Below are positions 48,047 through 52,814 of a stretch of 52,814 nucleotides of DNA, one piece after another; position 1 is the first letter of the stretch, and each line of letters starts with the position of its first letter. The stretch spans positions 1 to 52,814 of the forward strand of contig DATLUM010000111.1 in NCBI GenBank assembly GCA_035533095.1. Reading direction: 5' to 3'. The position numbers and the translations under genes are program-made. The notes under the pieces are model-generated. The model made no database searches and was not told the DNA's origin. It saw only the letters and a list, made by a program, of their open reading frames with translations. Source of the DNA: Acidimicrobiales bacterium. Its GTDB lineage: Bacteria > Actinomycetota > Acidimicrobiia > Acidimicrobiales > Palsa-688.

Positions 48047-51000
48047 GTGGGGGCGTCGTTTACCCACCTGCACCAGCACACCGAGTTCTCGATGCTCGAC
48101 GGTGCCGCGCGGGTGCCCGACGTCATCGCGCGGGCCGTGAGCGACGGCCAGCCGGCGATCGGCATCACCGACCACGGCAACATGTACGGGGTCCTCGACT
48201 TCTACAAGGCGGCTCGCGAGGCGGGCATCAAGCCCATCATCGGGACCGAGGCCTACATGGCCGGCGAGTCCCGGTTCGAGCGCCCGGTGCGCAGAGGGCG
48301 AGTCGACGACACGGGTGGTGACGCCGGCGAAGGAGAGAAGCTCTACTACCACCTGACGCTCCTCGCCGAGAGCGACCAGGGCTACAAGAACCTGATGAAG
48401 CTCTCCTCCGAGGCGTATCTCGATGGTTACTACTACAAACCAAAATGCGACTGGGAGCTGCTCGAGCGATACCACGAGGGCATCGTCGCGACCACTGGAT
48501 GCCTCGGCGGTGTGGTGCTGCAGGCCATCCTCAACGGCAACACGCAGAAAGCCACGGCGCTCGCGTCGCGCCTCCAGGACATCTTCGGTCGGGAGTCGCT
48601 CTTCGTCGAGTTGCAGGATCACGGTCTCCCCGAGCAACACCGCACCAATCCCGAACTGATACGACTCGCGCAGAGGATCAATGCCCCTCTGCTGGCCACC
48701 AACGACAGCCACTACGTCTCGCGCTCCGACGCCGAAGCTCACGACGCCCTGCTGTGCGTCCAGACCGGCTCGGTCAAGGACGACCCCAAGCGATTCAAGT
48801 TCCACGGCGACGAGCACTACCTCAAGACCGCCGCGGAGATGCGGCACCTGTTCCGGGACTATCCCGAAGCGTGCGACAACACCCTTTGGATCGCGGAGCG
48901 TGCGAACGTCGAGATCGAGTTCGGCAAGCCGAAGCTGCCGTCTTTTCCCAGACCCGAGGGCTTCGCCGACGCCGACTCGTACCTTCGCCATCTGACCCAC
49001 GAGGGCGCAGCGCAGCGTTACGGCACGCCGCTGCCCGACGCCGTCGTGGAGCGCCTCGACTACGAGCTCGGTGTCATCTCGAGCATGGGCTTCTCCGACT
49101 ACTTCCTCGTCGTGTGGGACCTCATCCGCCACGCACGCGACAGCGGTATCCGTGTAGGCCCGGGCCGGGGGAGCGCGGCCGGTTGCTGCGTCGCTTACTG
49201 CCTGCGGATCGTCGACCTCGACCCGATCCACTACGACCTGCTCTTCGAGCGGTTCCTCAACCCGGGCCGCAAGCAGATGCCCGACATCGACATGGACTTC
49301 GACGAGCGTTACCGCTCCGAGATGATCCGTTATGCCACCGAGCGCTACGGCTGGGATCGTGTCGCGCAGATCGTCACGTTCTCGACCATCAAGGCCCGCG
49401 CGGCGGTGCGCGACGCCGCCCGTGTACTCGGTTACCCGTACGGGCTGGGCGACAAGATCGCCAAGCTGATGCCGCCGCTGGTGATGGGTCGCGACACCCC
49501 GCTGTGGGCGTGCTTCGACGAGAACCCGAAGTACATCGACGGCTACAAGCAGGCAGCGGAGCTCCGCGAGTTGTGCGAGGTGGATCCCGACGCGGCGAAG
49601 GTCGTCGGGGTCGCACGCGGGCTCGAAGGAATGCGCCGGCAGGACGGTATCCACGCGGCGGCGGTCGTCATCTCCGGCGACCCGCTGACGGACCACCTCC
49701 CGATCCAGCGCAAGCCGGACCCGGGAGGTCGGCCCGAGGACGCGCCGATCGTCACCCAGTACGAAATGCACGGCGTCGAGGAGCTCGGTCTTTTGAAGAT
49801 GGACTTCCTCGGGCTGCGGAACCTCTCCGTGATCGACCGGACCCTCGTCCTCATCGAGGAGACGACCGGTGACGTCGTCGACATCGACAACGTCTCCCTC
49901 GACGACCCCGCCGTCTACGAGATGCTGCAGCGGGCCGAGTCGATCGGAATCTTCCAGCTCGAGGGCGGGCCGATGCGGGCGCTGATGCGGTCGCTCGTGC
50001 CTGACTCCTTTGACGACATCGCCGCGCTCAACGCCCTCTACCGGCCGGGGCCGATGGCGGCGAACATGCACTACGACTACGCCGACCGCAAGAACGGGCG
50101 CAAGCCGATCACGTACCTCCACCCCGACCTCGAGGAGGTGCTGGCCGACACGCAGGGGCTCATGATCTTCCAGGAGTCCATGATGCGCGTGGCCCAGAAG
50201 ATCGCCGGCTACTCGCTCGAAGAAGCCGACAACCTGCGCAAGGCCGCCGGCAAGAAGATCCGCGAGGTCATGGCGAAGGAACGGGAGAAGTTCATCGCCG
50301 GCTGTGAGCGGACCGGTTACGGCGCGGAGATCGGCGAGAAGCTGTTCGACATCATCGAGCCGTTCGCCGACTACGCCTTCAACAAGTCGCACGCGTACGG
50401 CTACGCCCTCGTGGGCTATCAGACAGCCTGGCTCAAGGCGCACTACCCGGCCCAGTACCTCGCAGCGCTCCTTACCTCCGTCAAAGATGACAAAGACAAG
50501 ACCGGTGTGTACCTCGTCGAGTGCCGGACGCAAGGGATCGAGGTGCTCGTACCCGACGTCAACGTTTCGGCTTCGGACTTCTCAGCGGCTCGTTCAGTCG
50601 AAGGCGCCGGCGAGCGTTGGGTGATCCCGTTCGGGCTGTCCGCGGTCCGCAACGTCGGTGAGGGTCTCGTCGACAAGATCATCGCCGAGCGCGAGAAGGA
50701 AGGTCCGTTCAAGGACTTCTACGACTTCTGCAACCGCGTCGACCCGATGGTGCTCAACAAGCGGACCGTCGAGTCGCTCATCAAAGGTGGCGCGTTCGAC
50801 TCGCTCGGCCACCCCCGCCAGGGTCTCTGCATGGTCTTCGAGCAGATCGTCGACCGGACCCTGGCTCGCCGGCGGGAGGAGGACCAGGGGGTGATGAGCC
50901 TCTTCGGTGATCCTGGCGGAGGCGGTGACGCGGTGTTCGACGACGCCAGGGTGCCCATTCCCGACCAGGAGTTCGACAAGCACACCCGCCTGGCGTTCGA

Positions 51001-51598
51001 GAAGGAGATGCTCGGCCTGTACCTCAGCGACCACCCGCTGAAGGGCGCGGAGGCGGCCATGGCCCGCCACGTCGAGGTGTCGATCTCGGAGCTTCGCGAG
51101 CAGCCCAAGGACGGGCAGGTGGCGTGGGTCGGCGGCGTCGTCACCGGCCTCGCTCGCAAGTACACCAAGCGCGGGGACCTGATGGCGACGTTCTTGCTCG
51201 AGGACCTGCAGTCCTCGATCGAGGTCTGGGTGTTCCCGAAGGTCATGATGGAGGTCGGGCACCTCCTGGCCGACGACGCCGTCGTGTGCGTCCGGGGCCG
51301 GATGGACATGAGGGAGGAGCAGCCCAAGCTCGTGTGCATGGAGGCAAAGCGCCCCGAGCTGAAGCTCGACGGCACGATCGAGCCGCTCCACGTCGAGCTG
51401 CCGCTCCACGCGCTGACCGACGAGAGGGTCGAATCGCTCAAAAGGCTTTTAAGCGAGCATCCCGGGCCCTCGCCGGTGCTGCTCCACGTCGGGGCCAAGT
51501 GCATCCGCCTGGCCTCTCACTTCAGCGTCGACACCACCAGGGGGCTCCTCGCCGAGCTGAGGGTGCTCTTCGGGCCTTCCTGCTTCCGTCTCGGCTGA
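48047..51598 (+). CDS. dnaE: DNA polymerase III alpha subunit
   Basis: DnaE is the replicative DNA polymerase. The 1183-residue protein has an N-terminal PHP domain (FTHLHQHTEFSMLDGA, GITDHGNM), the palm motif PDIDMDFDE with D413 and D415 as catalytic aspartates, the fingers region (GREVMAKEREKF-like KKIREVMAKEREKF, FADYAFNKSHAYGYA), and a C-terminal OB fold (AWVGGVVTGLARKYTKRG). It is the DnaE1-type replicase, not the ImuA-linked error-prone DnaE2, because it is longer and stands without imuA/imuB. The GTG at 48047 has an excellent ribosome binding site. A hairpin follows the stop. Confidence 0.97.
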   Translation: MGASFTHLHQHTEFSMLDGAARVPDVIARAVSDGQPAIGITDHGNMYGVLDFYKAAREAGIKPIIGTEAYMAGESRFERPVRRGRVDDTGGDAGEGEKLYYHLTLLAESDQGYKNLMKLSSEAYLDGYYYKPKCDWELLERYHEGIVATTGCLGGVVLQAILNGNTQKATALASRLQDIFGRESLFVELQDHGLPEQHRTNPELIRLAQRINAPLLATNDSHYVSRSDAEAHDALLCVQTGSVKDDPKRFKFHGDEHYLKTAAEMRHLFRDYPEACDNTLWIAERANVEIEFGKPKLPSFPRPEGFADADSYLRHLTHEGAAQRYGTPLPDAVVERLDYELGVISSMGFSDYFLVVWDLIRHARDSGIRVGPGRGSAAGCCVAYCLRIVDLDPIHYDLLFERFLNPGRKQMPDIDMDFDERYRSEMIRYATERYGWDRVAQIVTFSTIKARAAVRDAARVLGYPYGLGDKIAKLMPPLVMGRDTPLWACFDENPKYIDGYKQAAELRELCEVDPDAAKVVGVARGLEGMRRQDGIHAAAVVISGDPLTDHLPIQRKPDPGGRPEDAPIVTQYEMHGVEELGLLKMDFLGLRNLSVIDRTLVLIEETTGDVVDIDNVSLDDPAVYEMLQRAESIGIFQLEGGPMRALMRSLVPDSFDDIAALNALYRPGPMAANMHYDYADRKNGRKPITYLHPDLEEVLADTQGLMIFQESMMRVAQKIAGYSLEEADNLRKAAGKKIREVMAKEREKFIAGCERTGYGAEIGEKLFDIIEPFADYAFNKSHAYGYALVGYQTAWLKAHYPAQYLAALLTSVKDDKDKTGVYLVECRTQGIEVLVPDVNVSASDFSAARSVEGAGERWVIPFGLSAVRNVGEGLVDKIIAEREKEGPFKDFYDFCNRVDPMVLNKRTVESLIKGGAFDSLGHPRQGLCMVFEQIVDRTLARRREEDQGVMSLFGDPGGGGDAVFDDARVPIPDQEFDKHTRLAFEKEMLGLYLSDHPLKGAEAAMARHVEVSISELREQPKDGQVAWVGGVVTGLARKYTKRGDLMATFLLEDLQSSIEVWVFPKVMMEVGHLLADDAVVCVRGRMDMREEQPKLVCMEAKRPELKLDGTIEPLHVELPLHALTDERVESLKRLLSEHPGPSPVLLHVGAKCIRLASHFSVDTTRGLLAELRVLFGPSCFRLG

Positions 51599-51604
51599 AG
51601 AAAA

Positions 51605-51620
51605 CCGCCTCCCGAGGCGG
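51605..51620 (+). terminator. Transcription terminator of dnaE
   Basis: CCGCCT (51605-51610) and AGGCGG (51615-51620) make a perfect 6-bp stem with the loop CCCG, starting 6 bases after the dnaE stop. It is followed by GTGCTTTGG, with a short T run. A second hairpin CACCCG/CGGGTG (51667-51684) lies in the leader of the next gene. Confidence 0.65.
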
Positions 51621-51723
51621 GTGCTTTGGATCAGAAGTCTCTGGGGGGCCTAAAATGGCTGTTCAGCACCCGCCCCCTCGGGTGGGCGCCCAGCCGAGAT
51701 GTGGTGAGGAGAGTTACCGGGGA

Positions 51724-52395
51724 ATGACGCTCGCTGTCGAAACGAAGGACTGCACCGCACTTGCGGACGCCGAGTTGGCGGAGATGGCGGACATCGTGAC
51801 CGACGGGCCCGCAGGGTTCGATATCGGTCTGCTGTCCAAGCAGCCCGAAGCGTGGGTGCTCATCACCCAGGTTCACGACGCCGACAAACTGGTCGGCTTC
51901 TCGTTCTGCACCCTCGAGCGCATCGGTGGCACCCCGTGCCTGCTGTGGGGGCTGGCTTCGGTCAAGCGCAACTCCAAGCGGGACCAGGTCCTCAAGGCGA
52001 TCATCACCGCCCAGTTCCGCCGCGCCGTGCTCGCCTTTCCTGACGAGGACGTCCTGATCGGCACCCGCATGATCGACCCCGGTGCTTTCGCCGCGTTCAA
52101 GGGCCTCGAGGACATCTGCCCCCGGCCCGGCCACAAGCCCACCGGAGAGGAGCGGGCGTGGAGCCGGCGCCTCGCCAAGCGTTTCGGGGCGGAGAACCGC
52201 ATCGACGACCGCACCTTCATCGTCACCGGCGACGGCGACTGCTGCGGCGTGTTCGACTTCTCGCCGGCCAAGGCCGACACGGTCAAGGCCGACGTGGTGA
52301 CGTTCTTCGAGCCTCTCGACGGCGAGCGCCGCGATGTGCTCATCGCCTTCGGGTGGGCCATGGCGGAGGACCTCGCCAACAAGTACTCCCCCTGA
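51724..52395 (+). CDS. Conserved-looking protein of unknown function, possibly acyltransferase-like
   Basis: I do not recognise a named family. The 223-residue protein is soluble, with an alpha/beta pattern that recalls a GNAT-like acyltransferase: a strand pair at WVLITQVHDADKLVGFSFC, then LLWGLASVKRNSKRDQVLKA, where an acyl-CoA loop might be expected. GTRMIDPGAFAAFKGLEDI and GEERAWSRRLAKRFG look like conserved motifs. There are no membrane segments. The acidic C-terminus ends NKYSP. ATG 51724 has GAGGAGAG about 10 bases upstream; the same frame extends left through dnaE without a family match. It is separated from dnaE by a terminator, so it has its own promoter, and a hairpin spans its stop codon. 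Confidence 0.8.
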   Translation: MTLAVETKDCTALADAELAEMADIVTDGPAGFDIGLLSKQPEAWVLITQVHDADKLVGFSFCTLERIGGTPCLLWGLASVKRNSKRDQVLKAIITAQFRRAVLAFPDEDVLIGTRMIDPGAFAAFKGLEDICPRPGHKPTGEERAWSRRLAKRFGAENRIDDRTFIVTGDGDCCGVFDFSPAKADTVKADVVTFFEPLDGERRDVLIAFGWAMAEDLANKYSP

Positions 52396-52421
52396 TCTCC
52401 GGCTTCGTAGATCGAGGGGAG
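52386..52421 (+). terminator. Hairpin across the stop codon of the preceding gene
   Basis: CTCCCC (52386-52391) pairs with GGGGAG (52416-52421) and GATCT (52394-52398) with AGATC (52409-52413), with a 2 by 2 internal loop and a 10-base hairpin loop. The TGA stop of the preceding gene lies in the stem. Its right arm also belongs to the outer stem of the leftward structured element, so the two folds compete. Confidence 0.55.
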
Positions 52422-52509
52422 GGTGTCCGCAAGGCTCAGCTGTTCGGTGCGGCCAGTGCTTCGCACGGACAACGACACCGCCCAGCTGATCCTTACGCCC
52501 CCCTCCCTC
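52414..52509 (-). ncRNA. Structured element A (minus strand), partner of element B
   Basis: Read on the minus strand, this ~96-nt element folds as stacked stems. P1 is GAGGGAGGG (52509-52501) with CCCTCCCCTC (52423-52414), one base bulged. P2 is TCAGCTG (52489-52483) with CAGCTGA (52442-52436). P3 is CGGTG (52480-52476) with CACCG (52449-52445). P4 is GTGC-GAA-GCAC (52466-52456), flanked by CC and GG. The TCGTTGT between P3 and P4 is unpaired and identical to that in element B. I know of no family with this shape. Whether it is transcribed, or acts as DNA, is unknown. Confidence 0.5.
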
Positions 52510-52567
52510 TAACTATCAGCAGCGGGTCCGGCCCCGTCCTTGCGTGGCGAGGAGACAGAGAGTCGAA

Positions 52568-52650
52568 GGAGACCGGGAGGAGCGGCGGAGCGATGTCGTT
52601 GTCCCTGCGAAGCAGGGGCCGCATCGGGACGCCGAGCCTCCCGGGACTCC
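52568..52650 (+). ncRNA. Structured element B (plus strand), partner of element A
   Basis: This ~83-nt element matches element A in inverted orientation (about 45 of 60 bases over the core arms 52581-52640 and 52490-52431) and folds the same way. P1 is GGAG (52568-52571) with CTCC (52647-52650) plus CCGGGAGG (52573-52580) with CCTCCCGG (52637-52644). P2 is CGGC with GCCG, P3 is CGATG (52591-52595) with CATCG (52622-52626), and P4 is CCCTGC-GAA-GCAGGG (52603-52617). P2, P3 and P4 differ from element A by compensating changes, which supports selection for structure. Confidence 0.5.
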
Positions 52651-52679
52651 TCTTAAGGCTCGCCTTGCCGACACGCCGG

Positions 52680-52814
52680 CTAGGGGCGGGGGAGGATCGC
52701 CTCCACCACCTTGTGGCAGCGCCCGTCGATGGGCGGGGTCAGCGAAACGACCAGCCGGTCGCCCTTCGACCCGCCCATCCTCGTCATCCCGGCGCGGTCC
52801 ATCAGCCGGGCGAC
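52680..52814 (-). CDS. C-terminal fragment of a leftward gene
   Basis: A minus-strand frame enters the window from the right and ends at the TAG at 52680-52682. It encodes 44 residues, ending with LTPPIDGRCHKVVEAILPRP, with MDRAGMTRMGGSKGDRLVVS before. Codon use is typical of the window (G/C at third positions), and there is no stop within the visible part. I do not recognise the family from this fragment. It converges with the unknown gene ending at 52395; the 284 bp between them hold the terminator and the paired structured elements. Confidence 0.6.
   Translation of the reverse strand, partial: VARLMDRAGMTRMGGSKGDRLVVSLTPPIDGRCHKVVEAILPRP

Follow-up and report, generated by a model that had tools for sequence, protein, structure and literature searches.

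Hairpins with a bulged core and covarying stems past gene ends in an Acidimicrobiales lineage

Sequence tags usually serve to define the palindromic repeats that are common past gene ends; the best known of these are tied to RAYT transposases (tyrosine transposases associated with repetitive extragenic palindromic [REP] elements). Hairpins with a bulged T are also found as the subterminal hairpins of the IS200/IS605 insertion sequences and as RAYT targets. As described by Di Nocera et al. in 2013 (PMC3733652), REP elements of the GTAG and CGTC super-families are 20 to 40 bp long with the tag at one end, and the CGTC families have no dedicated transposase; PMC8355165 argues for hairpin termination without a U-tract. 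Here we describe a pair of hairpins, elements A and B, in a 52,814-nucleotide contig from an Acidimicrobiales bacterium (DATLUM010000111.1, assembly GCA_035533095.1), referred to below in its whole length as the window, together with their relatives in other genomes of the same taxonomic family.

Like REP elements, which are the nearest relatives in print, including the REP dimers treated in PMC3733652, these hairpins lie downstream of coding regions and form inverted dimers; they differ in being about 100 nt long (fold-based medians, 107 and 118), in having a bulged apical core and covarying stems, and in an orientation locked to the gene. The CGTC REP consists of an unpaired CGTC end, a stem of 8 to 9 bp, and a loop of 4 to 5 bases, whereas the folds here have 30 to 42 pairs (12 elements, folded with 20-nt flanks) and mostly 3-base loops. 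Near the hairpin feet, as estimated from the folds, GTAG was found in 0 of 22 copies, and CGTC in only 1 or 2 of 22, depending on the fold limits. With intrinsic terminators the elements share a position a few tens of nucleotides past the stop codon, and they differ from them in T-runs of at most 3, conserved bulges near the apex, and the number of pairs per fold; a terminator scan of 52380 to 52700 found 0 terminator-like sites (shuffles, 0.2). The bulged T recalls the IS200/IS605 hairpins and RAYT targets, but no Y1 transposase was found in the carriers: PF01797 (Y1_Tnp) gave no match in the genomes we designate G000, G014, G020, G009, and G010, other enzyme classes not having been searched, and because these genomes are drafts the absence is not absolute. 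The domain was found in 8 of the 32 genomes of the taxonomic family. A and B are neither tagged REP/RAYT elements nor classic terminators. The initial annotation had considered an inverted pair of the REP or bacterial interspersed mosaic element (BIME) type and suggested that a RAYT gene would favor a REP origin; the behavior agrees (intergenic, just past stop codons, in inverted pairs), and RAYT-based membership is not supported, given the missing Y1_Tnp, the missing GTAG, and the length. What defines the family instead is a bulged apex with changing, covarying stems, no known transposase, and a gene-locked orientation.

That annotation also knew of no named family with this form, and Rfam 15 bears this out. 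Over positions 50000 to 52814 at an E value of ≤5, the only matches over A and B were two microRNA models (E of 1.2 and 4.7) at 19.7 and 18.6 bits, far below their gathering scores of 100 and 88, and 12 other loci gave no match at an E value of ≤1. No publication on this hairpin family was found in the literature searched, whose coverage excludes most subscription journals. The covariance models built here add one for a group absent from Rfam 15.

Homologues were found by these models in related genomes. A pattern search of the genome that contains the window gave copy C, which lies past polA; a model from A and B only (R1) found copy D beside a sortase gene (E = 2.2e-5) and copy E beside dnaB (E = 0.003), both in G014, which belongs to a different genus of the same taxonomic family. 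A second model (R2), made from C, D, and E, recovers A at an E value of 1.4e-8 and B at 1.7e-12; its independence is only partial, since its three source copies had been aligned by means of R1. A third (R3), from 12 copies, was run over the 32 genomes of the taxonomic family and at an E value of ≤0.1 gave 4 matches in G000, 13 in G014, 3 in G020, and 1 each in G009, G010, and G019. The final alignment has 22 copies from 4 of the 32 genomes: the 21 scan matches of G000, G014, G020, and G009, all at a genome-wide E value of ≤0.1, plus the minus-strand copy at locus L082, which the genome scan did not list. Two rows from G020, L061 and L079, are apparently versions of one gatB locus.

In this alignment, which was fitted to the structure and is biased towards it (12 of the 22 rows built the model), 90.4% of the 552 cells over 26 pairs hold standard pairs, against a shuffled mean of 58.5%. 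Double-changed cells number 163 (58.6 in shuffles), and the covariation score is 0.686 (0.169 in shuffles). A double change is carried by 22 of the 26 pairs, compared with 18.6 after shuffling, where 1 of 500 shuffles was as high; sliding the pair partners by 1 to 3 columns reduces paired cells to 27.3 to 44.6%. The larger alignment thus carries the covariation that selection on a folded strand, proposed from A and B alone, had implied. Between A and B themselves, 6 of 27 shared pairs have changed on both sides and are still standard, a number reached by 6 of 500 shuffles.

Common to the copies is a core consisting of a helix, a pyrimidine bulge, a CG step, a UU bulge, and a second helix (P4) with a conserved U.G wobble. 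The bulge is a pyrimidine in 20 of 22 rows. The first pair of the step is C-G in 20 rows and U-A in the other 2, both of which have C for U in the bulge; its second pair is G-C in all 22, and the UU bulge is kept in 21. P4 opens with K-U-C: its first pair is U-A in 12 rows and G-C in 10, and its second is U.G in 19, U-A in 2, and something else in 1. Read from the printed loops, GNA closes the hairpin in 17 of 22 rows, GNNA in 2, and other loops in 3. Since a GNA loop closed by C-G is stable in DNA and also known in RNA, the loop cannot tell one from the other. Identity across copies is 0.64 in the core and 0.35 to 0.37 in the outer stem. This anatomy corrects the first description of TCGTTGT as one unchanged single strand; it is a bulged T, a paired CG, a bulged TT, and then the GT that opens P4.

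The elements are also placed and oriented with respect to genes. Elements were assigned to the closest stop codon up to 100 nt away; 19 of the 21 loci that remain once the gatB duplicate is left out had such a codon, at 4 to 69 nt (median, 27). At 18 of these 19, the element is oriented opposite to the gene ending there (two-sided binomial P = 7.6e-5). A first count gave 14 of 16, with five loci unplaced; six loci were then re-read for missed short genes, which changed L066, L074, L075, and L076 and left L064 and the plus-strand copy at L082 as they were, so that 4 of the 18 were assigned only at the second look. Leaving out L085, which scores within the noise, makes it 17 of 18. Host genes supported by Pfam are polA, sortase, dnaB, gatB, carboxyltransferase, acyl-CoA dehydrogenase, metH, groEL, dnaK, thiolase, CrgA, RelA/SpoT, HIT, and infA (IF-1). 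CrgA is an actinobacterial marker, and its presence next to one of the G014 copies agrees with an actinobacterial host. The recA host was named from the sequence, a Nudix neighbor was assigned from sequence alone, and a 55-amino-acid (aa) open reading frame (ORF) at L074 had no match in Pfam. The sequence comparisons establish the family, with its covarying fold, conserved core, and orientation bias.

Because the direction is fixed by the gene, the stop codon is close, and the fold is kept by compensation, a job at gene ends is indicated, and the elements are probably functional components of gene endings and not repeats that arose by chance. We hold, with about as much doubt as confidence, that A and B are copies of a lineage-restricted, orientation-locked family of 3′-end hairpins, REP-like in behavior, that works at gene ends. 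We propose that such a hairpin would mark the transcript of the preceding gene at its 3′ end and protect it there, and that inverted pairs might additionally block antisense readthrough from the convergent neighbor. The action would resemble that of REP elements or BIMEs in a 3′ untranslated region, with the core being recognized by a protein or by RNA polymerase instead of through a U-tract. If so, the family offers a testable handle on 3′-end formation in GC-rich bacteria without U-tracts.

Several observations weigh against this proposal. In 19 of 22 rows, the U.G pair becomes a C.A mismatch when read in the mRNA sense, and in 10 of 12 elements the mRNA-sense strand folds less stably than its complement (totals, −679.6 versus −752.8 kcal/mol); both features favor the antisense strand as the acting one. 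At the remaining pairs, the ratio of GT to AC cells is 9:7 over 12 rows and 24:12 over 22 (P = 0.065), too small an excess to decide between the strands. Orientation suits the mRNA strand, while the U.G and the energies suit the opposite one; a two-way role, protecting the end and stopping antisense transcription, would reconcile them. In the 12 bases past the foot, the longest T-run on either strand is 3 in all 22 copies; 2 of the 22 have 5 T in 8 bases on the gene-sense side. The element at L064, after an epimerase gene, runs in the same direction as its gene, and two loci lie more than 100 nt from any stop codon: the minus-strand copy at L081, near the start of grpE, and the plus-strand copy at L082, which lies 128 nt from crgA and is oriented against it. 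Each genome has few copies, which leaves most gene ends free of the element, and in 9 of 16 relatives the end of recA has no fold with a z-score of ≤−2.

The first P4 pair differs by genome, being G-C in 4 of 4 rows of G000 and 3 of 3 of G020 and U-A in 11 of 14 of G014 (Fisher P = 0.002, gatB duplicate dropped). A more specific and tentative proposal is that of a new class of fixed-direction gene-end hairpins, confined to one uncultured, actinobacterial-like taxonomic family, whose U/CG/UU double-bulge apex is read by a factor that sets transcript ends or blocks antisense entry; if true, the clade-specific pair (G-C or U-A) would reflect coevolution with the recognizing factor. The same difference among genomes would also fit a nonautonomous mobile palindrome, similar to REP elements or miniature inverted-repeat transposable elements, whose single-stranded hairpin is read by a recombinase or transposase and inserted at gene ends in a fixed orientation. 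C-GNA-G loops are very stable in single-stranded DNA, inverted pairs occur, and the sets of neighbor genes identified in the four carriers have no member in common; at recA, the sole orthologous site compared, the element is present in G014 and an unrelated hairpin in G000. We nevertheless regard mobility as rather unlikely. Beyond the lack of Y1_Tnp, identity is not higher within genomes (0.453) than between them (0.467), the gatB duplicate was the only near-identical copy noticed in the alignment of 22, and dead copies should lose their pairing, whereas the stems here are kept by double changes.

The recA ends also bear on the idea that these are ordinary GC-rich 3′-end hairpins, acting as terminators without a U-tract and sharing an apex by descent, with no dedicated factor. 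Among 20 recA loci searched with R3 (19 with at least 120 nt past the stop), the element stands at the end of recA only in G014; G000, whose RecA is 93% identical, has the unrelated hairpin there. When the 110 nt past recA were folded at 17 ends, G014 reached a z-score of −5.1, and 7 of the 16 others were at ≤−2, compared with 0 of 17 coding controls. The recA end thus often holds some 3′-end hairpin, since 7 of 16 relatives lacking the element fold this strongly, and such hairpins in several relatives, with the case made in PMC8355165, favor this explanation. On the other side, the core is invariant or compensated while the outer stems have diverged, and the other recA ends have no core. We consider ordinary terminators an improbable account of the family.

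G010 carries a possible variant subfamily, at L104:2907-2968 (minus), L104:3095-3142 (plus), and L077:1501-1551 (minus). These have a bulged U, a helix of 3 to 4 bp ending in CG, a bulged UU, and then GC-GAA-GC, with near-noise scores; two of them form an inverted pair. In the two lying further beyond recA, the CG step is replaced by a helix of 4 bp. Separately, the match to RecA is interrupted near residue 202 or 249 in G001, G002, G005, G007, G020, G023, and G031; open frames of about 485 to 830 aa surround the first parts, and in G020 the two parts are on different contigs. From these coordinates, this looks like inteins at two different RecA positions within one bacterial family. The dnaB ORF of G014 (L056:3-1466) likewise has an intein-like start ahead of the helicase domain, and Pfam names the helicase part only.

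By score, inverted pairs with the 5′ sides facing each other are A/B and L082 (37.8 and 36 bits), the latter between convergent genes in G014. The L081 pair scores 43.8 and 26.8 bits, with one member in the noise, as are the candidate partners of L065, L056, and L074 (20.7, 20.6, and 18.5 bits). The partners of L065 and L056 keep the UU followed by U-U-C-C/G-G-G-A but not the U/CG part; the L074 partner is doubtful. The facing 5′ sides raise the thought that small or antisense RNAs start in the spacer and are transcribed divergently, and the strand that keeps the U.G is the one such RNAs would have. A sigma-70 scan of 52380 to 52700 found no promoter-like site, a weak test in which shuffles also gave 0.0; many copies have no convincing partner, and the six spacers inspected vary from 43 to 106 nt with no common sequence seen by eye. 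Small RNAs are thus very improbable here, and the new small-RNA class first suggested for A and B finds no support, as the locked orientation ties the elements to the preceding gene.

At the locus itself (Table 1), the flanking genes are convergent, as had been read from the sequence: the plus-strand ORF ends at 52395, and the minus-strand frame stops at 52680 to 52682. From model-match edge to stop, A lies 33 nt and B 37 nt past its gene. The 223-aa ORF, whose start codon is our choice inside a longer open frame, sits between dnaE and A. R2 and R3 match A at 52428 to 52497 (60.5 and 68.8 bits) and B at 52574 to 52643 (78.8 and 81.9 bits).

Table 1. Positions of the hairpins, their cores, and neighboring genes in the window
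Feature	Position	Strand	Basis
ORF, 223 aa, ending shortly before A	51724..52395	+	no Pfam match at E ≤0.01
Element A, hairpin P1-P2-P3-bulges-P4-GAA loop	52415..52510	−	fold, z-score
Core of A: P3 CGGTG, bulge T, CG, bulge TT, P4, GAA, CG, P3′	52445..52480	−	sequence; column conservation, 22 copies
Spacer separating divergent hairpins A and B	52511..52566	.	no sigma-70-like promoter in weak test
Element B, hairpin	52567..52651	+	fold, z-score
Core of B: P3 CGATG, bulge T, CG, bulge TT, P4, GAA, CG, P3′	52591..52626	+	sequence; column conservation, 22 copies
Minus-strand gene, 3′ end, just past B; runs off contig	52680..52814	−	

A repeat search gave a single inverted pair with 91-nt arms, 70% complementary. 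The reverse complement of 52431 to 52490 matches 52581 to 52640 at exactly 45 of 60 positions, where about 45 had been estimated, and in-register 70-mers of A and B are identical at 52 of 70. The stem sequences named earlier for P2, P3, and P4 are correct. The outer P1 stem had been called unrelated in sequence but still pairing; this does not hold for the inner part of P1, as the ungapped alignment extends 17 bases to the left and right of P3, and in that stretch 8 of 12 pairs are identical in the two copies, so that P2 and the inner P1 of A and B are related. Against dinucleotide shuffles, the minus strand of A folds with a z-score of −6.03 and the plus strand of B with −6.11 (0 of 200 shuffles as good in each case). 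Because A and B are palindromic, the opposite strands also fold strongly (−5.12 and −5.57). Fold energy alone is no evidence, since strong GC-rich hairpins are frequent in the window.

The distribution of the family looks patchy and narrow on these sequence searches, of which the large ones were insensitive. A class-wide scan of 395 genomes, with 13 candidates scored in each genome listed, found 2 with a match at an E value of ≤0.001, G000 and G014. An exact-core pattern, which covers only the 7-bp form of P4, had 6 matches in 84,980 genomes (one per species, in a collection that may omit records near the window genome), none folding as the core and with about 7 estimated by chance; viral contigs gave 0 matches to it. 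Alignments were model based, as MAFFT misplaced the core in diverged copies. An R1 scan of 99 relatives gave 8 with a match at an E value of ≤0.1, G000 and G014 among them.

Rejected by eye were R1 matches in G018, G019, G044, G058, G091, and G092; the R3 match L078 in G019; the short-pattern candidates L001, L004, and L006 to L008; the BLAST candidates L012 and L013; and L059 and L060 from G000. L077, in G010, was at first set aside too; two related hairpins then came to light past recA in that genome, and L077 was retained as a possible variant. One of 25 pattern matches, C90:36340, is the true copy L074, which R3 detected later. As a noise control, rejected loci rescored with R3 reach 27.9 (L051, G092), 26.4 (L077), and 25.7 bits (L078). 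L051 has no TCGTT core yet scores 31.6 bits with R2 and may be a far relative. At least 32.2 bits is reached by 20 of the 22 rows; the minus-strand copy at L081 (26.8) and L085 (26.1) are within the noise, and omitting them leaves the overall picture unchanged. These two, the G010 variants (28.4 and 20.9 bits), and the weak partners of L065, L056, and L074 are supported by the visible core rather than by score. Genome-wide E values are between 0.001 and 0.1 for L080, L083, L085, and the minus-strand copy at L081.

Three further features were seen beside individual copies. At L005, around 1410 to 1490, a direct repeat of about 18 bp (by eye) adjoins copy C past polA. L074:1640-1689 (plus) is a second strong hairpin with TCGTTGT in its loop and no bulged core, possibly a decayed relative. 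What appears to be one gatB-end element is present on two contigs of G020 (L061 and L079/L062), and on the contig where its 5′ side differs, an ORF that we take to be transposase-like comes next.
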